Shown here: one piece after another, positions 41,550 through 63,861 of the stretch
How positions within the stretch are numbered: position 1 is the first letter of the stretch
Layout of the letters: the number at the start of each line of letters is the position of its first letter
Position numbers and translations under genes: made by a program
The notes under the pieces: generated by a model
What the model saw: the letters and a program-made list of their open reading frames with translations, nothing else
Told to the model about the DNA's origin: nothing
Database searches by the model: none
Assembly: GCA_002878315.1 (NCBI GenBank)
Contig: PNIW01000006.1
Location: forward strand, 1-64,000
Direction: 5' to 3'
Origin: Mesoaciditoga sp.
Lineage (GTDB): Bacteria; Thermotogota; Thermotogae; Mesoaciditogales; Mesoaciditogaceae
Length of the DNA stretch: 64,000 nucleotides

Positions 41550-42711
41550 CAATGCAGTAATAACAAAGAGAAAAATAGAGGCTTTGATCCAAAAAGGCAA
41601 GAAAAACGGTTATGTAACGTACTCCGATATAGACAGCGCCATCCCGAATGACGAGGAATTAGATTCGAATCTGCTTGAACAGATATACGAAATGCTCGAA
41701 AAGGAAAATATCGAGATTCATGATGATGGTGAAGATGTCTCTGACGAAGGCGAAACCTACATAGACACGGAAAGTTCTGAAGTCAAAAAATATCTTACGT
41801 ATCTCGATGGCCAGCAACCTTCTGTTTACGACAACGCCAATCTGAAAGATCCTGTCAAACTTTATCTCAAAGAGATAGGAAAGATACCTCTCCTTTCTCC
41901 AAGTGAGGAAAGAAAACTTGCCAGAAAAGCGGCCGCCGGGGACGAAAAAGCGAAGCAAAAATTAGCGGTTGCAAATTTGAGATTGGTCGTTAGCATAGCT
42001 AAAAAGTATATGGGACGCGGTCTGTCATTTCTTGATCTGATACAGGAAGGTAATATAGGCCTTTTAAGGGCTGTAGACAAATTCGACTGGAAGAAGGGAT
42101 ACAAATTTTCAACCTATGCTACGTGGTGGATAAGACAGGCAATCACGCGTGCAATAGCAGATCAGGCGAGAACGATAAGGGTACCTGTACACATGGTTGA
42201 GACGATAAATAAGATGAACAAGGTCATAAGGAATTACATGCAGGAATACGGCACATATCCAACTATAGATGATCTGGCACGCGAAATGGGAAAACCGAAG
42301 GAGAAGATAAATGAAATTTTGAAGGCCGCAAGAGAAACGATCTCCCTTGAGTCAACGGTTGGAAATGACGACGAATCAACAGTTGGAGATTTCGTAGAAG
42401 ATCCAAATGTTCTATCTCCAGAAGATGCGGCAGCCCAGATGATACTTCACGAACAGATCGATAAGGTTCTCAACACGCTTAGTCCTCGAGAGGCTATGGT
42501 ACTTAAAATGAGATATGGTCTTATAGATGGGAAAGCAAAGACACTTGAAGAAGTTGGTCAATATTTCAACGTCACAAGGGAAAGAATAAGACAGATAGAG
42601 GTAAAGGCTTTAAGAAAATTAAGACATCCAAGTAGGAGCAAGCATTTGAAAGTTTTCATGGGTCTCGACGATGATCAATCTGAAGTAACACAGAGCACGC
42701 AGGAAAAATAA
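41539..42711 (+). CDS. rpoD: RNA polymerase primary sigma factor (sigma70/sigmaA)
   Basis: Housekeeping sigma factor. Region 1.1 is an acidic N-terminus of about 85 residues. Region 1.2/2 follows ([20 protein letters not shown], then [19 protein letters not shown] and [20 protein letters not shown]). Region 3 is present, and region 4 has [20 protein letters not shown]. 390 residues. The ATG at 41539 follows AGGTGA; a GTG at 41530 is less well placed. Pairing with dnaG is the common macromolecular-synthesis arrangement. A strong terminator follows. Confidence 0.97.
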
Positions 42712-42740
42712 AAAGGTGGATTTCATCCACCTTTTTATTA
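42710..42740. terminator. Intrinsic terminator between rpoD and the convergent gene
   Basis: A 12-bp stem, AAAAAGGTGGAT (42710-42721) and ATCCACCTTTTT (42725-42736), with loop TTC. A tract on one side and T tract on the other make it effective in both directions, serving rpoD and the minus-strand operon that ends at 42738. Confidence 0.92.
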
Positions 42741-43808
42741 TCCCAATTTGATCGAACTGTAATCTCCTATTATGAAATTGTGCACCTTGGGTTTTTTGTC
42801 TATACTCGATACATTCGCGTTCTTTCCTATGATACTCGCATCTATCCTTACGCCCAAATTCCTTACCACGGCATTTTCGAGAAGAATGGAATTTTCCACT
42901 TCGGCATTTTCTATTATCACATTTTTGCCTATAGAAGTGTAAGGGCCTATATAGGAATTTATTATCGTCGAATTCCGATCTATTGAAACTGGGCCGCGAA
43001 TCACGGAATTCACTATTTCAACGCCTTCTTCTATCAATATATGACCTTCTATTTTCGTGCTTCCGTTTATTATTCCCATCTTCTTAGAATGTTTTACATT
43101 TTCAAGGATCCTTCTATTTGCCTCGAGAAGATCTTCCGGACGACCTGTATCCTTCCACCATCCGTATATTATATGTCCTTGAACTTTGTAATTATGTTCT
43201 ATAAGATACTGAATAGCATCGGTGATTTCGTATTCTCCTCTCCACGATGGTTTTATATTGGTTATGCCATCGAAGATCGAAGAATCGAATATGTAGACCC
43301 CTATTATGGCAAGGTTAGACGGAGGATTTTGAGGCTTTTCAACAACTTTTGAGATCGTATTTCCATTTACGACGGCAACACCGAATCGTGAAGGATCATC
43401 AACGGGGGTGAGAAGGATCGAAGCGTTCAACTTTTCCCTTTCAAAATCTTTAACAAAGGTTACAAGATTTTCCTGAATAAGATTGTCTCCAAGATACATC
43501 AAAAAAGGCTCTCCATCAAGAAAATCCTTGGCCGTGCTAACGGCATGAGCAAGACCTTTGGGATCTGCCTGAATTATGTATGAAAGTTTTATACCAAAAT
43601 CAGAGCCATCTCCGAGAGTTTCCTGAAATGCCTGAATATTTTCGGTGTTGACTATCATTCCTATCTCATTTATACCCGCTTCTTTTATCTTTTCTATGCT
43701 GTAGAGAATGACAGGTTTGTTTGCAACGGGTATAAGTTGCTTTGCACTTGTAAATGTGAGAGGACGCAAACGCGTCCCCTTTCCGGCACACAATATTATC
43801 GCTTTCAT
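42738..43808 (-). CDS. Sugar nucleotidyltransferase, long glucose-1-phosphate thymidylyltransferase type
   Basis: Makes NDP-sugars from sugar-1-phosphates. The N-terminal nucleotidyltransferase signature MKAIILCAGKGTRLRPLTF is followed by LIPVANKPVILYSIEKIKEA and the MYLGDN element. From about residue 245 the hexapeptide-repeat left-handed beta-helix characteristic of the long (RmlA-long) form runs to the end at 356. dTDP-glucose synthesis is likely, but UDP or other substrates are possible. It overlaps the flavoprotein gene by four bases and is last in the operon. Confidence 0.88.
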   Translation of the reverse strand: MKAIILCAGKGTRLRPLTFTSAKQLIPVANKPVILYSIEKIKEAGINEIGMIVNTENIQAFQETLGDGSDFGIKLSYIIQADPKGLAHAVSTAKDFLDGEPFLMYLGDNLIQENLVTFVKDFEREKLNASILLTPVDDPSRFGVAVVNGNTISKVVEKPQNPPSNLAIIGVYIFDSSIFDGITNIKPSWRGEYEITDAIQYLIEHNYKVQGHIIYGWWKDTGRPEDLLEANRRILENVKHSKKMGIINGSTKIEGHILIEEGVEIVNSVIRGPVSIDRNSTIINSYIGPYTSIGKNVIIENAEVENSILLENAVVRNLGVRIDASIIGKNANVSSIDKKPKVHNFIIGDYSSIKLG

Positions 43809-45157
43809 TTCTCTTTACAATTCAATTTTGCGTACACGTCAAGCGCTGCCGTTATCACAGGATAAACGACCGGAGAAGCCGTTACAAGAGGATGTGTCCC
43901 TATTTGCAAAGATGCTATGTCGGCAACGGTCATTCCACCCTGAATTGCCGTACCCACAATGTTTATCATCTCGCCGATTGATTTTCCGCCCATCATCTGG
44001 CATCCTATCAAAACGCCACTGCTCTTTGAAAAGATCAATTTTACCTTTACTTTACTTGTATCGGGCAAAGTCGCTGGATGTCTGTCCACAGAATTGGCAA
44101 TTCCTATTTCCACATCAAAACCACCATTTTTAGCATCCGTTTCATCAAGACCTGACGCCGCAAAGATGACTCCTCCCACCGATATCGAAAAAATGTTTAA
44201 ATCTCCCTTTACCTGACGTATCAATTTGAGATTGTAAAGGTTAGCAGCAGCGATTCTTGCATCAAATGCCGCAACAGAGGCAAGCATTAACCTGTTTGCG
44301 CGCCTTGTGAAGAAATCTTTGTGCTCGGCACAATCTCCGATCGCAAAAACGTCCATTTCACTTGTTCTCATGTACTCGTCTGTCCAGATTCCTCCACTTA
44401 TTCCAATAGAAAGACCAGCCTCTTTGGCAAGGGTATTCTCTGCCCTGTATCCTATTGAAAGGATGACAACATCTGCATCCACGCGCTCTCCGGATTCCAA
44501 AAGCACACCTTCAACCTCTCCGTGACCCAAAATTTCTTTTACCTTGCTCGAAGTCTTTATTTTTATGCCTTCATCCTCCATTATTTTTCTTGCTTCTTCG
44601 GAAAATTCTGGATCAAAGGCGACAGGAAGAACTCTATCGAGCGCTTCTATTATCGTTACATCTTTTTTTGCCCTTCTCAGTTCATCGCTTACTTCCATTC
44701 CTATGAATCCAGCACCGACTACTACCACTTTTTTTGAATTAGATAGCGCTTCTTTAAGAGCTTTTATTTGTTTTATATCTTTCGGGACTGTAAATACATT
44801 TTTGAGATCAACTCCAGGAATCTTCGGGACTATAGGCATAGATCCTGTCGCGAGGACAAGTTTATCGTATTCGAATTCCTTCCCGGAAGCCGTAAAAACC
44901 TTTTTGGCCTTCGGATCTATTTTAGTAACGATATCATTTAAAACTTCGGCTCCGGCACTTTCTATTCCCTTTGTCGACATGATGTCACTCTCAACTTTGT
45001 CTAACGTGCTTATAGTGTAGGGAATTCCACACGGCACAAGAGTGTCTTTCTCTTTCTTGATCATCACAATTTTTTTCTTCGGATAGATAGCCAAAGCGGT
45101 GGAAACAAAACCTATTCCGGCTGCTCCTCCTCCAACGACAACTACATCGTACTTCAT
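43805..45157 (-). CDS. FAD-dependent NADH oxidase / CoA-disulfide reductase family protein
   Basis: Flavoprotein of the pyridine nucleotide-disulfide reductase class with a single active Cys. FAD motif VVVVGGGAAGIGFVSTAL (5-22), Cys43 in VPCGIPYTIS, NAD motif VVVVGAGFIGMEVSDELRRA near 155, and FAIGDCAEH near 280. A C-terminal dimerisation domain contains GTHPLVTASPVVYP. Members reduce CoA disulfide, polysulfide, or O2 with NADH, useful for redox defence in an anaerobe. 450 residues. AAGGAGATG precedes the ATG. Confidence 0.87.
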   Translation of the reverse strand: MKYDVVVVGGGAAGIGFVSTALAIYPKKKIVMIKKEKDTLVPCGIPYTISTLDKVESDIMSTKGIESAGAEVLNDIVTKIDPKAKKVFTASGKEFEYDKLVLATGSMPIVPKIPGVDLKNVFTVPKDIKQIKALKEALSNSKKVVVVGAGFIGMEVSDELRRAKKDVTIIEALDRVLPVAFDPEFSEEARKIMEDEGIKIKTSSKVKEILGHGEVEGVLLESGERVDADVVILSIGYRAENTLAKEAGLSIGISGGIWTDEYMRTSEMDVFAIGDCAEHKDFFTRRANRLMLASVAAFDARIAAANLYNLKLIRQVKGDLNIFSISVGGVIFAASGLDETDAKNGGFDVEIGIANSVDRHPATLPDTSKVKVKLIFSKSSGVLIGCQMMGGKSIGEMINIVGTAIQGGMTVADIASLQIGTHPLVTASPVVYPVITAALDVYAKLNCKEK

Positions 45158-53370: not shown

Positions 53371-54372
53371 TCACTCCCTAATCGTTGAATTTCTCCTGAC
53401 AAGAAAAACATCAAGTACCTTTGATTCCACGTGTTTGCCATTGAGCATATCTATAAGAATCATTGCTGCATGCTTTCCAACTTCGTTTATAGGCTGCCTC
53501 ACAGTCGTAAGAGAGGGATTTACCATCGCTGACAGAGGCACATCATCAAATCCTACAATCGGTATATCCTTTCCGACCCTTAATCCTGCTTCCTCAATGG
53601 CAGCCATAGCGCCTGTTGCCATAAAATCACCAGACACAAAGATTCCATCGAAGGAAAGATCTTTTAAGGCTTTTTGGGTAAGAATATATCCATTCTCTCT
53701 GTCTGAGTTTTTTTCAACGTATCTCACGAGACGTTCATCATATTCTATGCCTTTCTCTTTGTGAGCCCTTATATACCCAGATAGTCTATATCTTGTAGCG
53801 GCATGGCCTTTCGGACCATTTATAAATAAAATTCTTTTGCATCCAACTTCAAAAAGATGTTCTGTTGCTATAAATCCACCTTTTTCATTGTCAGTATCAA
53901 CATATTCATAAGTCCCGACATTATTCGGTCTTCCTATAACAACAAATGGTATTCCGAATTTTTTCAAAGCAAAGATCCTTTCATCTCCGTCCATCACATC
54001 GAAAAGTATTAATCCATCGGCAAGTCCTTTGGCGGCTATTTCAAGGTAAGAATCTGTCTTGCCTTTCTTTTCGGTCGATATAACGAGATGATAATCAAGA
54101 TCTGAAAGCACAGCACTCATTCCATGAATGAATTCAACAAAATACGGAAAAGATATGAAATAATCGAGATCGTGGGATATAACTATGCCTATTCCATTAC
54201 TCGAATTTGTTCTAAGACTCTTGGCAGAATGGTTGGGAAAGTAATTCAATCTTTCTATAGTTTCAATAACACGCTTTTCCGTTTCAGGATCAACATTTCC
54301 AAGATGGTTTATCACTCTTGAAACGGTTGCGACAGAAACATTTGCAGCCCTTGCAACATCTTTTATCGTCAT
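53371..54372 (-). CDS. LacI-family regulator of the alpha-glucan operon
   Basis: 333 residues. Helix-turn-helix MTIKDVARAANVSVATVSRV at the start, hinge helix to about residue 60, then the ligand domain (GIGIVISHDLDYFISFPYFV near 62). It leads an operon with glucosidase, binding protein and two permeases. A gluco-oligosaccharide effector is inferred. GAGGTG lies six bases before the ATG. The promoter-operator arrangement shows autoregulation. Confidence 0.92.
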   Translation of the reverse strand: MTIKDVARAANVSVATVSRVINHLGNVDPETEKRVIETIERLNYFPNHSAKSLRTNSSNGIGIVISHDLDYFISFPYFVEFIHGMSAVLSDLDYHLVISTEKKGKTDSYLEIAAKGLADGLILFDVMDGDERIFALKKFGIPFVVIGRPNNVGTYEYVDTDNEKGGFIATEHLFEVGCKRILFINGPKGHAATRYRLSGYIRAHKEKGIEYDERLVRYVEKNSDRENGYILTQKALKDLSFDGIFVSGDFMATGAMAAIEEAGLRVGKDIPIVGFDDVPLSAMVNPSLTTVRQPINEVGKHAAMILIDMLNGKHVESKVLDVFLVRRNSTIRE

Positions 54373-54430: not shown

Positions 54431-54602
54431 ATCCTTTTATAAACGAATTTCGGAATTTTTCGGTGAAAAAACCCATTTTAAAGTAGATTAATTTTATAAT
54501 CCTCGAAATATCTTTTCATAAGTCTTTAAAGATTCGTTGTTCTTATCAAACCGATCAAAAAATTGAAACAAGAAATTTTTTGATATGCAAAAGATTTAAA
54601 AG

Positions 54603-54611
54603 TGGTAAAAT
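54603..54611 (+). promoter_or_regulatory. Extended -10 promoter of the aminotransferase operon
   Basis: TG-G-TAAAAT (TG at 54603-54604, TAAAAT at 54606-54611) lies 36 bases before the start codon. A TTGATA at 54580-54585 is 20 bases away, too far for a good -35. The rest of the 275-base divergent gap holds only the leftward promoter and operator. Confidence 0.5.
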
Positions 54612-54647
54612 TTATTTAGTGTGATATGCAAAGAGGAGGAGATCGTC

Positions 54648-55793
54648 ATGATAAAGAAATTAAGAATAATGACTCCAGGACCCACGCCAGTACCGGTAGA
54701 CGTTTTGCTTGAAGGGGCACGTGAAACTCTTTATCACAGAAATCCTGAATTTTTAAAGATGTTGGAAACAGCCTCAAATGATCTAAAAAACATTTTTAGA
54801 ACCAATGGACATGTTTTTATTCTTGCCTCTTCAGGAACCGGATCCATGGAGGCGGCGGTGGCAAATACTGTAAATCCGGGGGATAAGGTTATAACAGTAG
54901 TAGGCGGTAAATTCGGTGAGAGATGGGCAGATCTTTGCAAGGCGTACAATGCAAATATGATCGAGTTAGACATTGAATGGGGAGATTACGTAAGACCAGA
55001 ACAGATCGAGAAATTGTTGAAAGAAAACCCAGACGTAAAGGTCGTCTTTACCACCTTAAGCGAGACATCAACTGGCGTTGTTAACGATATAAAGTCCATA
55101 GCCGAGATCGTCAAAAAAACCAATGCCCTTCTTGTGGTTGACGCGGTAAGCGGTATTCTCGCAGAGCCTCTTGAAACCGATCTATGGGGCGTAGATATCG
55201 TTGTTGCAGGATCTCAAAAGGCTTTCATGATGCCTCCTGGACTTGCATTTGTCGCGGTATCAGGAGAAAAGGCGTGGAAAAGAATTGAAGAGGTTAAGTC
55301 TCCAAGATATTATTTCGATCTGAGGGCGTACAAAAAATCCTATACAGATACTCCTTACACGGGAGCGGTAAATCTCGTTTACCAGTTGAACAAGGGCCTT
55401 GAAATGATAAAGTCCGAAGGAATTGAAAATGTATGGGCAAGGCATGCTATCTTTGGAAATGCCGTCAGAAAAGGTGTAAAAGCTTTGGGACTCGAACTTT
55501 TTGCAAAGAAGCCCGGAAATGTAGTAACAGCCGTTAAGGTGCCGGAAGGCGTCGATGGATCGAAATTTTTAAAATTCTGCCGCGAAGAATACGGCATGGT
55601 CTTTTCAGAAGGGCAATCCCAGTTAAAGGGAAAGATCTTCAGAGTCTCAAATCTTGGCTATGTTGATAAACTGGACATAATATCGGCAGTTGCAACAATA
55701 GAGATGGCAATGAACAAATTTGGAAAGAAGGTACCGATGGGAGCAGGCGTGAAGGCTGCAGAAGAAGTTCTTTTGGGAGATGAGAGAGAATGA
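54648..55793 (+). CDS. Class V aminotransferase (serine/alanine-glyoxylate type)
   Basis: PLP enzyme of 381 residues: TPGPTPVPVDVL near the start, SGTGSMEAAVANTV (PLP phosphate site), VVDAVSGILAEP with the PLP-ring Asp, and the Schiff-base Lys in GSQKAFMMPPG. The family covers serine-pyruvate, alanine-glyoxylate and phosphoserine/aspartate activities. The SerA-like gene that follows supports serine synthesis, while the downstream ureide-type enzymes would fit glyoxylate or ureidoglycine transamination. The ATG at 54648 follows AGGAGGAG. First gene of the operon. Confidence 0.9.
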   Translation: MIKKLRIMTPGPTPVPVDVLLEGARETLYHRNPEFLKMLETASNDLKNIFRTNGHVFILASSGTGSMEAAVANTVNPGDKVITVVGGKFGERWADLCKAYNANMIELDIEWGDYVRPEQIEKLLKENPDVKVVFTTLSETSTGVVNDIKSIAEIVKKTNALLVVDAVSGILAEPLETDLWGVDIVVAGSQKAFMMPPGLAFVAVSGEKAWKRIEEVKSPRYYFDLRAYKKSYTDTPYTGAVNLVYQLNKGLEMIKSEGIENVWARHAIFGNAVRKGVKALGLELFAKKPGNVVTAVKVPEGVDGSKFLKFCREEYGMVFSEGQSQLKGKIFRVSNLGYVDKLDIISAVATIEMAMNKFGKKVPMGAGVKAAEEVLLGDERE

Positions 55794-56707
55794 AGTTTAA
55801 AGTTTTGGTTAACGATCCGCTCGCGCCGGACGCGATAAGGATTTTAAAGAACGCGAATTTGGAAGTGGAAGAAAGAGAGTATTCAAAAGAAGATTTACCA
55901 AAACATATTGGTGAATACGACGGGATAATAGTTAGAAGTGCTACAAAGGTTACGAAAGAGGTTATAGAGGCTGGCAAAAAATTAAAGGTCATAGGACGCG
56001 CCGGAGTTGGTCTTGATAACATAGATCTCAATGCGGCCAAAGCGCACAACATACCGGTTTTAAGCACTCCAACCGCAAATGCCATAAGCGTTGCAGAACT
56101 CGTTTTCGGATTTATGATTTCGGTCTCGCGCCATATTGTAACGGGAACTACAACCTTAAGAGATGGAAAGTGGGAAAAGAAAACTCTCGAAGGAGTCGAA
56201 CTGTACGGCAAAACTCTTGGAATAATAGGTTTTGGAAATATAGGGGCAGAGGTTGCGAAAAGAGCCTTTGCATTTGGGATGAAGGTCATAACCTATGATG
56301 TAATTCAAAACAAGCGCGGCCTTGACGTTGAATTTGTTCCTTTAAATGATCTCCTTAAAAATTCAGATTACATAACAGTTCATCTGCCACTTTTAGATTC
56401 AACAAAGCATGTAATATCTGACGAACAATTTTCTATGATGAAAAGATCTGCGATCTTTGTTCATGCGGCCCGCGGTGGGATAGTCGATGACAGAGCGCTT
56501 TTGAACGCTCTAAAGACCGGCAAAATCGCAGGCGCGGCCCTTGATGTTTTTGAATCCGAACCATTGGACGAGATAGGCCGTCAGATCGTATCAATGCCTA
56601 ATGTCGTTGCGACGCCACATCTTGGAGCCTCAACAATAGAGGCACAGGGTCGAGTGGGACGCGAAATAGCGGAAAAAATCGTCGATTTCTTCAAGGGAGT
56701 GAAATAA
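55790..56707 (+). CDS. serA: D-2-hydroxyacid dehydrogenase, SerA-like phosphoglycerate dehydrogenase
   Basis: NAD-dependent dehydrogenase of 305 residues: VIGRAGVGLDNIDL near residue 66, NAD motif LGIIGFGNIGAEVAKRAF near 143, the substrate Arg in VHAARGGIVDDRALL, the Glu in VFESEPLD and the catalytic His in ATPHLGAST. It lacks the C-terminal ACT domain of longer SerA proteins. 3-Phosphoglycerate is the default substrate; hydroxypyruvate or glyoxylate are alternatives. Overlaps the aminotransferase by four bases. Confidence 0.88.
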   Translation: MKFKVLVNDPLAPDAIRILKNANLEVEEREYSKEDLPKHIGEYDGIIVRSATKVTKEVIEAGKKLKVIGRAGVGLDNIDLNAAKAHNIPVLSTPTANAISVAELVFGFMISVSRHIVTGTTTLRDGKWEKKTLEGVELYGKTLGIIGFGNIGAEVAKRAFAFGMKVITYDVIQNKRGLDVEFVPLNDLLKNSDYITVHLPLLDSTKHVISDEQFSMMKRSAIFVHAARGGIVDDRALLNALKTGKIAGAALDVFESEPLDEIGRQIVSMPNVVATPHLGASTIEAQGRVGREIAEKIVDFFKGVK

Positions 56708-57907
56708 ATGGCATCTCCACAGGATATACTGAAAAAGGCATATGAGTATGAAAAAGATGTCGCGCAATTTTTGAGAGACATAGTCGCCATTCCAAGTTAT
56801 TCCGGCCAGGAAAAGGCCGTTGTTGACAGAATCGCGGCAGAGATGAAAAAAGTAGGCTTTGACGAGATCAAAATAGATGGTCTTGGAAATATCTTTGGAA
56901 GAATTGGAAATGGAAAAAAGAAGATCGCGATGGATGCGCATGTCGATGTTGTCGGAGTCGGAGATCCAACTCAGTGGAAACATGACCCATTTAAGGGTAA
57001 AGTGGAAAACGGTATAATCTACGGAAGGGGTGCCGGAGATCAAAAAGCCGGCATGGCCTCCATGGTGTACGCCGGCAAGATAATAAAAGATCTTCACCTT
57101 GAGGGTGATTACACTCTCTACGTTGTCGGATCTGTGATGGAAGAGGAATGCGATGGATTGTGCTGGCAGTACATAGTTAAAGAGGATAAATTTATTCCAG
57201 ATTACGTTGTGATAACAGAGCCTACAAATCTCAATATTTACAGGGGACACAGGGGAAGAATAGAGGTCGAGATCCGGACAAAGGGAAAATCTGCCCATGC
57301 GGCAATGCCTGAACGCGGCGAAAATGCAATTTACAAAATGGCAAGGATAATTTTGGGAATTGAAAAGTTGAACGAGAGACTCAAATCCGATTCTTTCCTC
57401 GGCAAAGGGACAGTTGTTGTATCTCAGATCTTTTTCAAATCTCCTTCTGAAAATGCAGTTGCCGATGAATGTACAATCCATATAGATAGAAGACTCACGG
57501 CAGGAGAGACGAAGGAAAGTGCAATAGAAGAGTTCAAAAAAGTCATAAAGGAAGCAGGAGTTGAGGCCGAAATAATCGAGTTAACCTATCATGGAAAGGC
57601 CTACACGGGTAAGGAATATTCTTCAGAAAAATATTTCAGAACATGGGTTATGGATGAAAATTCCGAAATAGTTCAGGCTGCCGTCAAGTCTTACAGAGAC
57701 CTTTTTGGTTCTGAACCCAAGGTAGACAAATGGAATTTTTCAACCAACGGAGTTGCAACGGCCGGCCTTTTCAAAATACCAACCGTAGGATTTGGACCTG
57801 CCAACGAGATATATGCCCATGGCGTTGACGATCAGGCACCAATTGATCATCTTGTAAAAGCGGCTGCTTTTTATGCATATTTACCTCAAAAAATAGTGAA
57901 GGAGTGA
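56708..57907 (+). CDS. ygeY: YgeY-family M20 metallohydrolase
   Basis: A peptidase-M20-fold hydrolase of 399 residues. Metal-site motifs: DAHVDVVGVGDPTQW near 78, GRGAGDQKAGMAS near 108, the Glu pair in VMEEECDGLCW, VITEPTNL, and the final His in YAHGVDDQAPIDHL. The pattern is that of YgeY, historically called selenium-metabolism hydrolase and lately linked to anaerobic purine breakdown in gut bacteria. It starts directly after the serA stop with no gap, so expression is coupled. Confidence 0.87.
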   Translation: MASPQDILKKAYEYEKDVAQFLRDIVAIPSYSGQEKAVVDRIAAEMKKVGFDEIKIDGLGNIFGRIGNGKKKIAMDAHVDVVGVGDPTQWKHDPFKGKVENGIIYGRGAGDQKAGMASMVYAGKIIKDLHLEGDYTLYVVGSVMEEECDGLCWQYIVKEDKFIPDYVVITEPTNLNIYRGHRGRIEVEIRTKGKSAHAAMPERGENAIYKMARIILGIEKLNERLKSDSFLGKGTVVVSQIFFKSPSENAVADECTIHIDRRLTAGETKESAIEEFKKVIKEAGVEAEIIELTYHGKAYTGKEYSSEKYFRTWVMDENSEIVQAAVKSYRDLFGSEPKVDKWNFSTNGVATAGLFKIPTVGFGPANEIYAHGVDDQAPIDHLVKAAAFYAYLPQKIVKE

Positions 57908-57911
57908 TAAA

Positions 57912-58901
57912 ATGGGTACTTTGTTGCGCGGAAGGCATTTCATCACAACGCAGGATTTTACAAAGGAAGAAATCGATCTGATGTTAGAAACTTCCTTTGA
58001 TTTGAAAAGGAGGTTTGCGAGGGACGAGTTAACACCATGGCTGCTTTATAAAACTGTCTTCATGATCTTTTACGATGAATCTACAAGAACGAGAAACTCG
58101 ATAGAGGCAGGCATAACCCAGTTAGGAGGCCATGCACATTACCTTGTGCCTGAAATGATGCAGGCCGATACAGCCAAGGTTTTGAGCAGATTCGGTCATG
58201 CGATAGCGGTAAGGCACTGCGCGTTTGGACAGGGAAATAAATTTTTGAGAGATCTTGCCGCCAACTCTAATGTTCCTGTTTTAAACCTTCAGGATGATGT
58301 CTACCATCCAATGCAGGTTTTGGCCGATTTAATGACCATTCAGGAAAGGTTTGGAAAGAACCTGAAAGGCCTTAAGGTTGGCATAAGTTGGGCATACGCA
58401 GAAAGCCATCTTAAGCCACTGTCAGTCCCTCAATCCCAGATATTGCTCTTTGCAAGGTATGGAATGGATATAACTCTGGCCTATCCAGAAGGATTTGATC
58501 TAATGCCCGACATAGTCAAACAAGCCAAACTCAATGCCGAAGCCGGTGAGGGTAAATTGACGATAACTCATAATATGGATGAGGCATTCAAAGACGCAGA
58601 CGTAGTCATTCCAAAATCATGGGGTGGATTTTACACGATACCCAATCCTTTGGAGGCAGACAAATACAAAGATAAAATATGGGCCGAGGCCGCAAAGCAT
58701 AAAGACTGGATATGCGATGAAAAAAGAATGAGCCTTACAAAGAAACATTCAGTATACATGCACGCTCTTCCGGCAGATCGTGGAAAGGAAGTTGTTGATT
58801 CCGTCATAGATGGTCCGCATTCAATAGTTTGGGACGAAGCCGAAAACAGACTCCACACCGCAAAGGCCGTTATGGCACTGACAATGGGAGGAAGGCCTTG
58901 A
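57912..58901 (+). CDS. ygeW: Knotted carbamoyltransferase YgeW
   Basis: Trans-carbamoylase-fold protein of 329 residues. The carbamoyl-phosphate loop is ESTRTRNSIEAGITQLGGHA, followed by AVRHCAFGQGNKFLRDLA (altered HPxQ region) and the dock-like MHALPADRGKEVVDSV. These are features of YgeW, whose natural substrate has long been unclear but is proposed to be a ureido compound. AAGGAGTGATAA precedes the ATG; it overlaps the next gene by four bases. It is not the arginine-pathway enzyme by context. Confidence 0.88.
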   Translation: MGTLLRGRHFITTQDFTKEEIDLMLETSFDLKRRFARDELTPWLLYKTVFMIFYDESTRTRNSIEAGITQLGGHAHYLVPEMMQADTAKVLSRFGHAIAVRHCAFGQGNKFLRDLAANSNVPVLNLQDDVYHPMQVLADLMTIQERFGKNLKGLKVGISWAYAESHLKPLSVPQSQILLFARYGMDITLAYPEGFDLMPDIVKQAKLNAEAGEGKLTITHNMDEAFKDADVVIPKSWGGFYTIPNPLEADKYKDKIWAEAAKHKDWICDEKRMSLTKKHSVYMHALPADRGKEVVDSVIDGPHSIVWDEAENRLHTAKAVMALTMGGRP

Positions 58902-60259
58902 ATGATTTAGGAATAATAGGCGGAAAGATTTTTGACGGTGCCAGATCATATATTGCGAATATTTACATCAGAGATGGTTGCATAACAGCGATCACCTCTG
59001 ATTATCTTGAATCAAAAGAAAACTACCCTGCCGTTGGCAAGTACGTCATGCCCGGTCTTATAGATCCGCATGTGCATTTTTCGCTTTCTCTGGGTAAATA
59101 CAGATCGGCAGATGATTTTGAATCGGGATCTATAAGTGCCGCATTTGGAGGGATTACGACTTACATAGATTTTTTGGATCCTGTAACTCACGAAGATGAG
59201 ATAGATGAAAAATTTTTAAAAAGATTAGAAGAGGCAAAAAACTCTCACATAGACTATTCATTCCACATGACAATAGCCCATCCGGACATCGATCCTGTTA
59301 TCCTTGCAAAGCGAACGCTTGCTCTTGGTATAAATAGTATAAAAACCTTTACGACCTACAGCACTTCAAATCGTATGACAGACAATGGATATATTTTAGA
59401 TCTGCTATCGATAACGAAAAAATATGGAATAATCGAAACCTTTCACGCCGAAGACGATGCAATAATACTTCACAGATCAAAGATGAAAAAGAAGCAGTTA
59501 CCCCAAGATCTGCCATTTTTACATCCTTACGAATCTGAGATGTCGGCTGCCATGAGTATAGCGGCAATGGCAAAAATGACAAACGGCCAGGCATATATTG
59601 TTCATAATTCAAGTGGAATCTCAGTCAAAATGATAAAGAAATTAGATGCTTCCGCAAATTTGAGGCTCGAAACGTGTCCTCAATATATCTGCTTAAATGA
59701 TGATTTATATGAAAGAGACGATGCATACCTTTACACTTTAGTGCCTCCTTTAAGATCACGTTTAGAATCAGTCTATCTGCACAAAGCGTTTAAAGACGGA
59801 TCGATCTCGACTGTCGGAACAGATCACTGTCCGTTCAAAAAAGCCGAAAAGTTTGAAAATAGATTTAATTACGACTCTATGCCAAATGGGATCGGTGGAG
59901 TTGAAACTTCTTTCGTTTTGCTCTACAACATGGATCGCTCGGAAAAAAATGTCAATACCCTCGTGAATATGCAGAGTGTCAATGTTGCCGAAACATTTGG
60001 CCTTAAGAACAAGGGAAAAATCGCCATAGGCGCCGATGCAGACATAGCGATCTTCGATCCGTCTGTTAAATGGACCATCAGTATATCAAATCTGCACACG
60101 AAAGCGGACTATACGCCATATGAAGGAACAGATGTGATCGGCAAATTCATTTCTGTCATATCAAGAGGAAGATTCGTCATTAAAGACGGAGAGTTTGTTG
60201 GAAAAAGGCTAAAGGGGAAGTTTGTAAAAAGGAGGAAGGTCTTTTGGCCTACACGATAG
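58898..60259 (+). CDS. Hydantoinase/dihydropyrimidinase-like amidohydrolase
   Basis: Cyclic amidohydrolase of the TIM-barrel metal-dependent class, about 453 residues. Ligands: MPGLIDPHVHF, the carbamylated Lys in IKTFTTYS, HAEDD, YIVHNSS, and the Asp in VGTDHCPFKK. It opens cyclic ureides such as hydantoins or dihydropyrimidines. The TTG start overlaps the ygeW stop (TTGA), with GGAGGAAGG upstream. An equivalent gene (hyuA) accompanies ygeW and ygeY in E. coli. Overlaps ssnA by 16 bases. Confidence 0.87.
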   Translation: MNDLGIIGGKIFDGARSYIANIYIRDGCITAITSDYLESKENYPAVGKYVMPGLIDPHVHFSLSLGKYRSADDFESGSISAAFGGITTYIDFLDPVTHEDEIDEKFLKRLEEAKNSHIDYSFHMTIAHPDIDPVILAKRTLALGINSIKTFTTYSTSNRMTDNGYILDLLSITKKYGIIETFHAEDDAIILHRSKMKKKQLPQDLPFLHPYESEMSAAMSIAAMAKMTNGQAYIVHNSSGISVKMIKKLDASANLRLETCPQYICLNDDLYERDDAYLYTLVPPLRSRLESVYLHKAFKDGSISTVGTDHCPFKKAEKFENRFNYDSMPNGIGGVETSFVLLYNMDRSEKNVNTLVNMQSVNVAETFGLKNKGKIAIGADADIAIFDPSVKWTISISNLHTKADYTPYEGTDVIGKFISVISRGRFVIKDGEFVGKRLKGKFVKRRKVFWPTR

Positions 60260-61530
60260 GAAATGCCATAATTTATACAGGAGATGAAATTATAGAAGAT
60301 GGTTACATCTCCTTTGATGATCGCGTAATCTCGACAGGTAAGATGGATGATTTGAAATCAAAGGTCAATTACGATGCTCACGGAATGCTTTTAATGCCAG
60401 CATGGGTAAATGCGCACACGCATATTTATTCGGCTCTCGCACGGGGAATGAATATTTATTTCAATCCAAAAACATTTACCCAGATACTCGATCAATTATG
60501 GTGGAAACTCGATAGAAATTTGGGCCAGGCCGAAATAGAGGCAAGTGCTTACGCGGCAGCAGCCGATCTTATTCATTCCGGTGTATCGACGATCTTCGAC
60601 CATCATTCAAGTCAGAATTTCATCAAAGGATCTTTGGCAATTTTAAAGAAAGTAATTGTGGATACGGCCGGAATGAGAGGAATTTTTTGTCACGAAACAA
60701 GCGACAGAGATGGAACACAGATCGAATCTATAGAAGAAAATATTGATTTTTACAAATTGAACAGATCCGGAACAGTCGCCGGCATGATGGGATTGCACGC
60801 TTCATTTACCTTAAGTGATACTACCCTAAGAGAGGTTTCAAAAGTATGCGATGGAAAGATACCAATCCACATACATGTTGCGGAAGGAATAGAAGATGAA
60901 GTGTATTCAATAAACGATTACGGTTTGCGAGTAATCGAAAGGCTTGACAAACATGGACTAACCATTCCAAATTCCATCTACGCTCATTGTATACATGTCG
61001 ACGAATCAGAGGCAGAAATGATAGGTAAAAGCAAGGGGTTTATAGCAAACGCAACTCAATCTAATATGAACAACGCCGTTGGTATAGCAGACATAGGAAT
61101 GCTAAGTAAACGCGCAAAGGTAGTTATCGGTGATGATGGATTTGGCTTTTCTCCGCCATTTGATTTGAGAATAACACCTCTCGGTCAAAAGATCGCAAAA
61201 AATTCTCCTACCGCATTTTCGACTTCCGATTTGAAATCCTTAATAGACAATACGTTTGAACTCGCATCAAATCATCTTAACTTAAAATTTGGAAAAATAA
61301 AGACCGAATATGTGGCCGATCTTATGGTAATAGATTACAGATCTCCAACGCCTGTAAGCAAAGAGAATTTCTGGGATCATATATTTTTTGGAATTGGCTC
61401 ACCGGTAAGATCTCTTTTTATAAACGGCAAGCCTGTAATGATAGACGGAGAAATAAAAACATTCGATGAAGATGAGGTAAAAAAAGAGTCTAGAAGAATA
61501 GCCCGGATTTTGTGGAACAAAGTAAAGTAA
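60244..61530 (+). CDS. ssnA: SsnA-type aminohydrolase
   Basis: Amidohydrolase-superfamily deaminase of 428 residues. Metal ligands and active-site groups: NAHTHIYSALARGM near residue 57, IHIHVAEG, IYAHCIHVD and VIGDDGFGFSPPF. The long ALARGM stretch and the GDDG in place of the usual SDG identify the SsnA group. The substrate is unproven; a guanine- or purine-related ring is often suggested. TTG start with AGGAGGAAGG upstream. Co-occurs with hydantoinase, YgeW and YgeY. Confidence 0.86.
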   Translation: MAYTIGNAIIYTGDEIIEDGYISFDDRVISTGKMDDLKSKVNYDAHGMLLMPAWVNAHTHIYSALARGMNIYFNPKTFTQILDQLWWKLDRNLGQAEIEASAYAAAADLIHSGVSTIFDHHSSQNFIKGSLAILKKVIVDTAGMRGIFCHETSDRDGTQIESIEENIDFYKLNRSGTVAGMMGLHASFTLSDTTLREVSKVCDGKIPIHIHVAEGIEDEVYSINDYGLRVIERLDKHGLTIPNSIYAHCIHVDESEAEMIGKSKGFIANATQSNMNNAVGIADIGMLSKRAKVVIGDDGFGFSPPFDLRITPLGQKIAKNSPTAFSTSDLKSLIDNTFELASNHLNLKFGKIKTEYVADLMVIDYRSPTPVSKENFWDHIFFGIGSPVRSLFINGKPVMIDGEIKTFDEDEVKKESRRIARILWNKVK

Positions 61531-61542
61531 GGGGGGAAAAAG

Positions 61543-62622
61543 ATGGATTTCTCTACCGAAATAGCAGGACTTCACCTCGAAAATCCTTTGATGCCGGCGG
61601 CAGGGCCGCTGACTGGTGATGATAAAAAAATGAAATACATTGCCTCTCTCGGAGTAGGCGCAATGGTGACAAAAACGATTTCTACCGAGGCGGCAAAGGT
61701 TCCAAGACCATGTATCGTCGCAACAAAAGATTATGTTGTAAACGCAGAGTTGTGGTCCGAATACGGGCCGGATAAGTGGATAGAGGAATTCTTGCCGGGA
61801 ATCCAGTCTTTAAAGATTCCAAAGATCATAAGCATAGGATATTCAAAATCACAGATAGAATATCTTGTACCGCGTTTAAAGGATTTTGGAGATGCATTCG
61901 AAATCTCGACCCATTACACGGGAAAAGATATTGCACCGATAATCGAGATCGCAAAAAGCGCGATAAGATTATCCAAAAAACCCATATTCATGAAGGTCAG
62001 TCCACACATGCCCGATCCCGTTGAATTCGCGCAAAAAATGAAGGAGGCCGGTATTGCCGGCATAGTCGCGGTTAACTCTTTCGGACCCGTTTATTACGTT
62101 GATCCGAAATTCGGCCATCCGACTCTCGGATCCGAGAACAGATATGGATGGATCTCTGGGCCGATAATAAAGCCCATCGCGCTTTCAATAGTCTTAAGGA
62201 TAAAGCAGAACGTGGATATACCTGTCATTGGGGTGGGAGGGATAAGAACTGCAGACGATCTCGTTGATTTCCTTGAGGTGGGAGCATCAGCCGTTGGAAT
62301 GCTTTCATCTGCTTTGATATACGGCAAAGAACAATACAAAAGGATCGTCGGTGGCCTCGAGATGGCTTTGAAAAAGCGTGGATATTCATCCGTAAAAGAC
62401 GCGATAGCGAGCAAAATTGAAAAAAGATCTCCCGAATTCACGGTAAGAAATCCTCAAATAGATGCCAAAAAATGCACACTTTGTAAAATGTGCGAATATG
62501 TATGCCCTTACTTTGCCATAACCGTAACAGATCATGTTGAGGTTGACAAAAATGCGTGTTTTGGATGCGGCCTGTGTCAGACAAGATGTCCGGTTGATGC
62601 AATAAGCGGCGTGCTTGAATAA
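61543..62622 (+). CDS. Dihydroorotate/dihydropyrimidine dehydrogenase-like protein with 2x[4Fe-4S]
   Basis: 359 residues: an FMN-binding TIM barrel (residues 1-285; LENPLMPAAGPLTGD, VTKTISTEAAKVPRPC, VNSFGPVYY, GVGGIRTADDLVDFLEVGA) and a C-terminal ferredoxin domain with two CxxCxxCxxxCP clusters (CTLCKMCEYVCP, CFGCGLCQTRCP). The NLSCPH-type catalytic loop of dihydropyrimidine dehydrogenases is reduced to STHYTG. It may do the redox job done elsewhere by the N-terminal part of YgfK. GGGGGG-type binding site; last gene of the operon. Confidence 0.85.
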   Translation: MDFSTEIAGLHLENPLMPAAGPLTGDDKKMKYIASLGVGAMVTKTISTEAAKVPRPCIVATKDYVVNAELWSEYGPDKWIEEFLPGIQSLKIPKIISIGYSKSQIEYLVPRLKDFGDAFEISTHYTGKDIAPIIEIAKSAIRLSKKPIFMKVSPHMPDPVEFAQKMKEAGIAGIVAVNSFGPVYYVDPKFGHPTLGSENRYGWISGPIIKPIALSIVLRIKQNVDIPVIGVGGIRTADDLVDFLEVGASAVGMLSSALIYGKEQYKRIVGGLEMALKKRGYSSVKDAIASKIEKRSPEFTVRNPQIDAKKCTLCKMCEYVCPYFAITVTDHVEVDKNACFGCGLCQTRCPVDAISGVLE

Positions 62623-62643
62623 CTTTGCAGTATTATAACAATG

Positions 62644-62675
62644 ATTCCGGCTCAATTGCCGGAATTTATTTTTAT
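62644..62675 (+). terminator. Intrinsic terminator of the YgeY-YgeW operon
   Basis: An 8-bp stem, ATTCCGGC (62644-62651) and GCCGGAAT (62658-62665), with loop TCAATT and a TTTATTTTTAT tail. Confidence 0.9.
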
Positions 62676-62790: not shown

Positions 62791-62819
62791 TTGATTAGGA
62801 TGGCAAATTATAATATAAT
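62791..62819 (+). promoter_or_regulatory. Consensus promoter of the last LacI gene
   Basis: TTGATT (62791-62796) and TATAAT (62814-62819) are 17 bases apart. The TTG at 62791 could be misread as a start codon in frame with the regulator, but it is the -35 box. Confidence 0.8.
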
Positions 62820-62821
62820 TT

Positions 62822-62837
62822 TTGAAAACGTTTGCAA
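62822..62837. promoter_or_regulatory. Operator of the last LacI gene
   Basis: TTGAAAACGTTTGCAA is palindromic in 14 of 16 positions with an ACGT centre, the classic LacI/GalR-family form. It starts three bases after the -10 box and ends just before the AAGGTG ribosome binding site. Confidence 0.75.
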
Positions 62838-62847
62838 GGTGAAAAGA

Positions 62848-63861
62848 ATGGTAAGCGGAAAGAGCATAAAAGATGTTGCAAAGGTGGCAGGCGTTTCAAT
62901 TTCAACAGTATCAAGGGTTTTAAATGAATCACAAAACGTGAGCGCAGAACTAAAGCAAAAGGTCTTGGATGCCGTCCAAAACCTTGGATATCGTTCAAAT
63001 ACAATTGCTCGTGCCCTAAAGGGTATGCCTACAAAGACCTTAGGGCTTTTGATACCAACAATTGAAAATCCTTTCTTCCCTTCAATGGTAAGAGGCGTTC
63101 AAGACGAGGCGCACCGGAACGGATATTCAGTCTTTCTTTGCAACACCGATGGATCTCGAATTATAGAGGAAACACAATTTAAATTATTGCTTGATAAAAA
63201 AGTCGACGGTATAATACTTGTTGCCTCCAAGTACACAACAAGATATTTAAAAAATGGAATGGAATTTCCGATCGTCATGATCGATAGGTACGTTAATTCA
63301 CCGAATTTCTCCTATGTGACCGTTGATCATACCATTGGAATAAGGCTTGCAATCGAACATCTCTACTCTCTCGGCCACAGAAAAATAGCATTTCTCGGAT
63401 CAAAACTGCTTTCATCCGGAGCAAGAGAACGTTTTCAATCATATAAAAGATACATCGAAGAATTCAAAATGAAATTCGACGATTCACTCATAATTCTGGG
63501 AGAATACACTTATGAAAGTGGCATAAAAATGGTTGAAGAGTTGATGAAAAGAAAAGTAAAGTTCGATTCAATTTTATGCGGAAATGATCTCATAGCATTC
63601 GGTGTTATCGAGGGATTAAAAAAATATGGAATAAAGGTTCCAAAAGATGTTTCTGTTGTTGGATACGATGATATAACTTTTTCTTCTTACCATAATCCTA
63701 AATTGACAACGATACGCCAGCCAACTTACGAAGTTGGACAGATGGCCACAAGAATAGTCATAGACATGATCTCAGGCGTAGATAGAAGAGTCAAACATAT
63801 AAAGATAGAACCTTCCCTTGTAATCAGAGAAACAACACGCAAAAGAGGAAGTGAAATTTAA
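62848..63861 (+). CDS. LacI-family regulator upstream of a sugar ABC transporter
   Basis: 337 residues: helix-turn-helix [20 protein letters not shown] near the start, hinge, then ligand domain ([20 protein letters not shown] near 62; [18 protein letters not shown] near 275). The ATG at 62848 has AAGGTG six bases upstream and lies downstream of promoter and operator; an in-frame TTG at 62791 is rejected. It overlaps the ABC ATPase gene by one base (TAATG), so it probably controls a ribose/galactose/xylose-type transporter. Confidence 0.92.

Follow-up and report, generated by a model that had tools for sequence, protein, structure and literature searches.

The chemistry of reductive, anaerobic urate degradation is known from enzymes of the gut bacteria E. 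coli and C. difficile, whose cluster comprises XdhD, YgfK or UacX, SsnA, HyuA, YgeW or UacY, YgeY and YgeX, with UacX taking the place of YgfK in C. difficile (PMC12507026). A related neighbourhood was described by Barba et al. in 2013, in which the X1 dehydrogenase, which resembles dihydroorotate dehydrogenase (DHOD), has hyuA, ygeW, ygeY, ssnA and xdhABC as neighbours (PMC4016543). Here we describe a seven-gene operon at positions 54648-62622 of a 64,000-nucleotide stretch of DNA (the window; contig PNIW01000006.1 of assembly GCA_002878315.1) from a hot-spring species of Mesoaciditogales near Athalassotoga saccharophila. We read the operon as an ordinary serine-synthesis pair attached to a variant of this known pathway. 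Genes 3-7 are likely to be part of reductive urate degradation, in a Thermotogota/Clostridia variant in which YgeX is replaced by an enzyme resembling threonine synthase (ThrC-like), and genes 1-2 would serve serine synthesis and adjoin the module by position.

Genes 3-7 and the reductive urate cluster

The five genes that the operon has in common with the E. coli and C. difficile cluster (PMC12507026) all lie on the + strand: YgeY, an M20 hydrolase (gene 3, 56708-57907); a carbamoyltransferase, here of a sister clade of YgeW (gene 4, 57912-58901); a hydantoinase/dihydropyrimidinase-family amidohydrolase (gene 5, 58898-60259, with a TTG start at 58898); an SsnA-like amidohydrolase (gene 6, 60244-61530, with a TTG start at 60244); and a short UacX-type reductase (gene 7, 61543-62622). 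Gene 3 scores 585 bits against the YgeY model NF009555, over the cut-off of 321, and the HyuA and YgeW/UacY roles are assigned to gene 5 by its position, which is conserved across related loci, and to gene 4 by position and tree. Gene 7, which adjoins the SsnA gene, joins a DHOD-fold flavin mononucleotide (FMN) domain (PF01180, 112 bits) to a C-terminal two-cluster (2[4Fe-4S]) ferredoxin domain and has no NAD(P)H/FAD domain, an arrangement of domains like that reported for UacX. Its predicted structure (pLDDT 75, with the C-terminal domain poorly predicted) matches DPD and DHOD-B. Gene 7 is not a short YgfK.

The locus differs from the E. coli and C. difficile cluster (PMC12507026) in the absence of YgeX and YgfK and in being accompanied by the ThrC-like enzyme and by PLP463, a CysK-like pyridoxal phosphate (PLP) protein. 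An XdhD-type molybdenum (Mo) enzyme is a feature common to both, here encoded elsewhere in the genome; Thermotogota lie outside the phyla given for SsnA in that study. The X1 neighbourhood has the same neighbour genes as the gene 7 locus, and the main text describing it mentions neither Thermotogota nor a replacement of the lyase (PMC4016543). An earlier, sequence-only reading of the operon had noted that XdhD, YgeX and full-length YgfK were missing. For the latter two this extends well beyond the operon, as neither YgeX nor YgfK was found over its curated cut-off in any of the 103 Thermotogota genomes searched. XdhD is indeed missing from the operon but not from the genome, where it lies on contig C52 with FAD2 and FeS2; its identity with the copy that a relative carries in the cluster is 75%.

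The block YgeY-carbamoyltransferase-hydantoinase-SsnA-DHOD is kept in Mesoaciditogaceae, Kosmotogaceae and Thermosipho-type metagenome-assembled genomes, and partly in Clostridium and other phyla. In Kosmotogaceae and in Mesoaciditogaceae other than Athalassotoga it continues with ThrC-like, FeS1, MocA, FAD1, FAD2, FeS2 and XdhD as one long cluster, whereas in Athalassotoga the second half is found on other contigs or at other positions; the operon is therefore not the compact version of the pathway that had been proposed. In the source genome, contig C80 carries ThrC-like, FeS1, MocA and FAD1, and a carbamate kinase is encoded on contig C89. Contig C120 (36000-55999) holds one apparent operon, which would feed purines towards urate, with an adenine deaminase, a Mo-hydroxylase subunit, PLP463 (42524-43912, -) and an 8-oxoguanine deaminase that scores over its cut-off. 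Because FeS1/FAD1 stand beside the C120-type Mo subunit in Clostridia loci and FeS2/FAD2 stand beside XdhD, the two Mo subunits appear to belong to two separate Mo enzymes.

The same genes also occur together across the 103 Thermotogota genomes, where presence thresholds were set by hand from score gaps (for the carbamoyltransferase, at least 60% identity). The carbamoyltransferase was found in 64 genomes, strong SsnA in 63 (nine with copies over the curated cut-off of 444 bits), ThrC-like in 66 and PLP463 in 65, and these were largely the same genomes. Carbamoyltransferase and SsnA were both present in 61 and both absent in 37 (p 5e-22), carbamoyltransferase and ThrC-like in 63 and 36 (p 4e-23), and PLP463 and ThrC-like in 64 and 36 (p 3e-24), the Fisher p-values ranging from 1e-21 to 1e-24, uncorrected for relatedness of the genomes. 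Synteny and co-occurrence thus bear out the earlier suggestion that genes 3-7 are tied to anaerobic purine or urate breakdown in thermophilic Thermotogota.

We infer each reaction, and the operation of the pathway in this strain, from the observed gene content, synteny, co-occurrence, trees and absences. Purines would be converted to urate by adenine deaminase, xanthine dehydrogenase and 8-oxoguanine deaminase (C120) together with FeS1/FAD1 (C80), and urate would be reduced to yanthine by XdhD with FAD2/FeS2 (C52). Gene 7, as a UacX-like, ferredoxin-fed FMN enzyme, would dearomatise yanthine, SsnA (gene 6) would open the pyrimidine ring and the hydantoinase (gene 5) would open the second ring. 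One ureido group would be removed as carbamoyl phosphate by the carbamoyltransferase (gene 4) and used to make ATP by carbamate kinase (C89), and the other would be hydrolysed by YgeY (gene 3), giving 2,3-diaminopropionate, from which the ThrC-like PLP enzyme (C80) would release pyruvate and ammonia in YgeX's place. The gene order YgeY-carbamoyltransferase-hydantoinase-SsnA-UacX would be the reverse of this predicted order of reactions.

A candidate replacement for YgeX

The ThrC-like PLP enzyme is probably the replacement diaminopropionate lyase, judging by its distribution. In a tree it stands apart from true threonine synthase as a clade of its own (SH-aLRT 98), and in all 23 sequences NPYR/NPNR has become NP(Y/H)L, with leucine in place of the arginine, and EGQK has become (E/D)GKK. 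We take the arginine of NPYR/NPNR to be the substrate-phosphate-binding residue of threonine synthase. Both the source genome's own copy (216 bits) and that of a relative (218 bits) score over the cut-off of 167 of the threonine synthase model TIGR00260, and members of the clade are probably annotated as threonine synthase. A real threonine synthase is unlikely, as a normal ThrC is encoded on contig C20 and most genomes without the module have no ThrC-like gene.

In a sample of 245 Clostridia genomes, 18 had strong SsnA. Of the SsnA regions that we read, over up to 20 kb, YgeX was present in four and the ThrC-like gene in six (one of these from a genome reached apart from the sample), never both, and several regions had neither within that distance. 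PLP463 recurs in Clostridia urate clusters, and in one region (L034) a relative of it accompanies YgeX with no ThrC-like gene in view. We give even weight for and against the idea that the reductive urate pathway exists in a second form, in Thermotogota and some Clostridia, in which YgeX is displaced by the ThrC-like lyase with PLP463; these two might divide the D/L substrate range between them, or the pathway might yield a product other than pyruvate.

Alternatives to an intact urate pathway

Several observations weigh against assigning genes 3-7 to urate degradation by this route. Three of the genes fall below their family cut-offs: gene 4 scores 197 bits against the NCBIfam YgeW model (cut-off 453), gene 5 scores 318 against the dihydropyrimidinase model TIGR02033 (cut-off 393) and gene 6 scores 387 against the SsnA model NF005540 (cut-off 444), which is its best model and far exceeds the 144 of the best non-SsnA model. 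Glu606 of XdhD is uninformative as a marker because a Glu aligns in every copy, the C120 enzyme included. The lyase role of the ThrC-like enzyme is argued purely from association, and the second PLP protein, PLP463, is unexplained by the pathway. The source genome, a draft in 126 contigs, is ∼84% complete, and the window's carbamoyltransferase is the only homologue read that lacks the HGE of the 80s loop.

The last of these points bears on whether the pathway is whole. In gene 4, a 21-bp in-frame deletion between Q84 and the next ADTAK has taken seven residues (AHHGETP) out of the 80s loop, which is presumably the carbamoyl-phosphate-binding loop of transcarbamylases. The pathway could thus be broken or degenerating in this strain, a possibility that we regard as doubtful and that would be compatible with our preferred explanation. 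Against it, the remaining protein is 100% identical to that of A. saccharophila despite ∼0.5 synonymous difference per site, all seven reading frames are intact as called, and the deletion could be an assembly error of the fragmented draft; it represents either a very recent loss or such an error. With the gap included, gene 4 is 98% identical (tblastn) to its counterpart in A. saccharophila NAS-01, an anaerobic thermoacidophile cultured at 55 C.

Gene 4 had been labelled YgeW but falls in a sister clade of it. In a 43-row tree it groups as the sister of knotted YgeW (PDB 3q98), apart from ornithine carbamoyltransferase (OTC), with support of 98/93, and it has in common with YgeW the segment KPLSVPQ, which ArgI lacks, and a PKSW/PKNW motif; in contrast to YgeW, it is ∼60 residues shorter and lacks the HGE loop. 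The tree rules out OTC as the identity of gene 4, and a separate OTC-like paralogue is found on contig C36. Three divergent carbamoyltransferase paralogues adjoin YgeY in a Bipolaricaulota locus (L014:7083-11378).

A different substrate for the module, another cyclic ureide or hydantoin such as a pyrimidine or modified-base derivative rather than urate-derived yanthine, seems improbable. The low family scores of genes 4-6 would allow it, and gene 7, which resembles DHOD-B and PreA as well and over its full length is closer to PreA (E 5e-36) than to YgfK, stands in an X1-type context that Barba et al. tie to both pyrimidine and purine catabolism (PMC4016543). However, the module is associated in the genome with two Mo-hydroxylases, adenine deaminase and 8-oxoguanine deaminase, its partners are of the SsnA and YgeY types, and the N-terminal pocket motif of gene 7, AAGP...KT...RPC[IM]...N.E..S.E, is common to the YgfK N-terminus and absent from PreA (profile match 97%, E 4e-11).

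The serine pair and the operon

Gene 1 (54648-55793, +) encodes a class V aminotransferase of 381 residues, of the serine-pathway type of Thermotogota, whose best NCBIfam model is BhcA at 335 bits (cut-off 650). Gene 2 (55790-56707, +) encodes a SerA-like D-2-hydroxyacid dehydrogenase of 305 residues without the C-terminal regulatory domain, matching the phosphoglycerate dehydrogenase model with 360 bits over positions 1-303 of 525. Of the 103 Thermotogota genomes, 99 carry the aminotransferase, with or without the module, and SerA adjoins it in all 12 further loci read, module-less genomes included (in one of the 12 the aminotransferase was unlabelled by the open reading frame (ORF) caller and was placed there by the genome survey). 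Canonical SerC was found in none of the 103 genomes, so the pair is probably required for serine. The aminotransferase tree follows families; module-linked copies do not form one clade, at least four changes of linkage are needed, and within Mesoaciditogaceae the copies of G013-G015, which are unlinked, group with those of G011, G012 and G016, which are linked.

Genes 1-2 are, on this evidence, vertically inherited orthologues of the adjacent aminotransferase-SerA pair of Thermotogota, from which the copy here differs in being positionally joined to a purine module. Since the pair is vertically inherited and occurs with or without the module, the earlier proposal that it handles glyoxylate or hydroxypyruvate finds no support, and its alternative, serine synthesis, is favoured. 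Most likely the class V aminotransferase stands in SerC's place, and SerA and this enzyme would make serine while sharing a promoter by position. The neighbourhood is nonetheless not pure chance, as 14 of 64 genomes, from three families, have the aminotransferase and carbamoyltransferase genes within 10 kb of each other, which weakens the idea of a chance join. This recurrence, together with the 0-4-base spacing and common promoter in Athalassotoga, could also speak for a single seven-gene pathway in which genes 1-2 process a module product (perhaps turning pyruvate into alanine, or acting on an amino or oxo acid from diaminopropionate) and replace YgeX, but we think this quite unlikely given that the pair is adjacent in module-less genomes (such as G036, G062, G067 and G090), that the aminotransferase is nearly universal, that unlinked relatives nest among linked copies and that no genome has SerC. 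In a Clostridiales genome (G106; L305:14393) a different class V aminotransferase, 35% identical to gene 1, is found in a urate cluster, next to genes for ThrC-like, PLP463 and XdhC-family proteins.

The seven genes form a real, selected operon. As had been proposed, they are tightly spaced and end at one terminator: by the ORF calls, the junctions from gene 1 to gene 7 are an overlap of 4 bases, no gap, a gap of 4, an overlap of 4 (TTGA, between genes 4 and 5), an overlap of 16 and a gap of 12, and an intrinsic terminator with a 9-pair stem and T-rich tail follows at 62643-62666 (+). For the single promoter, a consensus scan was uninformative (21 found versus 23.5 expected from shuffles) and did not pick up the extended -10-like motif GTGGTAAAATTTAT 5′ of gene 1 (approximately 54601-54616, +). 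Support comes instead from conservation, as TTAAAA..GTGGTAAAATTTAT directly 5′ of gene 1 is kept in four Athalassotoga-type species that differ from one another farther upstream. Compared with A. saccharophila, each of the seven genes bears the mark of purifying selection (rough ratio of nonsynonymous to synonymous substitution, dN/dS, 0.002-0.14). The hydantoinase and SsnA genes (58898-61530), at 0.11-0.14, show several-fold faster protein evolution than the others. Neither a riboswitch nor another Rfam element was matched near the operon up to E = 1, and an Rfam scan of six related loci found only tRNAs. Regulators assigned by eye to the LacI family flank the operon at 53371-54372 (-) and 62791-63861 (+); two close species (L004 and L005) showed no such regulator upstream.

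As far as the literature shows, the breadth of the module in Thermotogota and the candidate replacement for YgeX are new. The newly described anaerobic urate pathway would thereby extend to a largely thermophilic phylum, in ∼60% of its sampled genomes, and specific enzymes, heat-stable ones among them, become candidates for the lyase step that is missing and for a purine reductase driven by ferredoxin.

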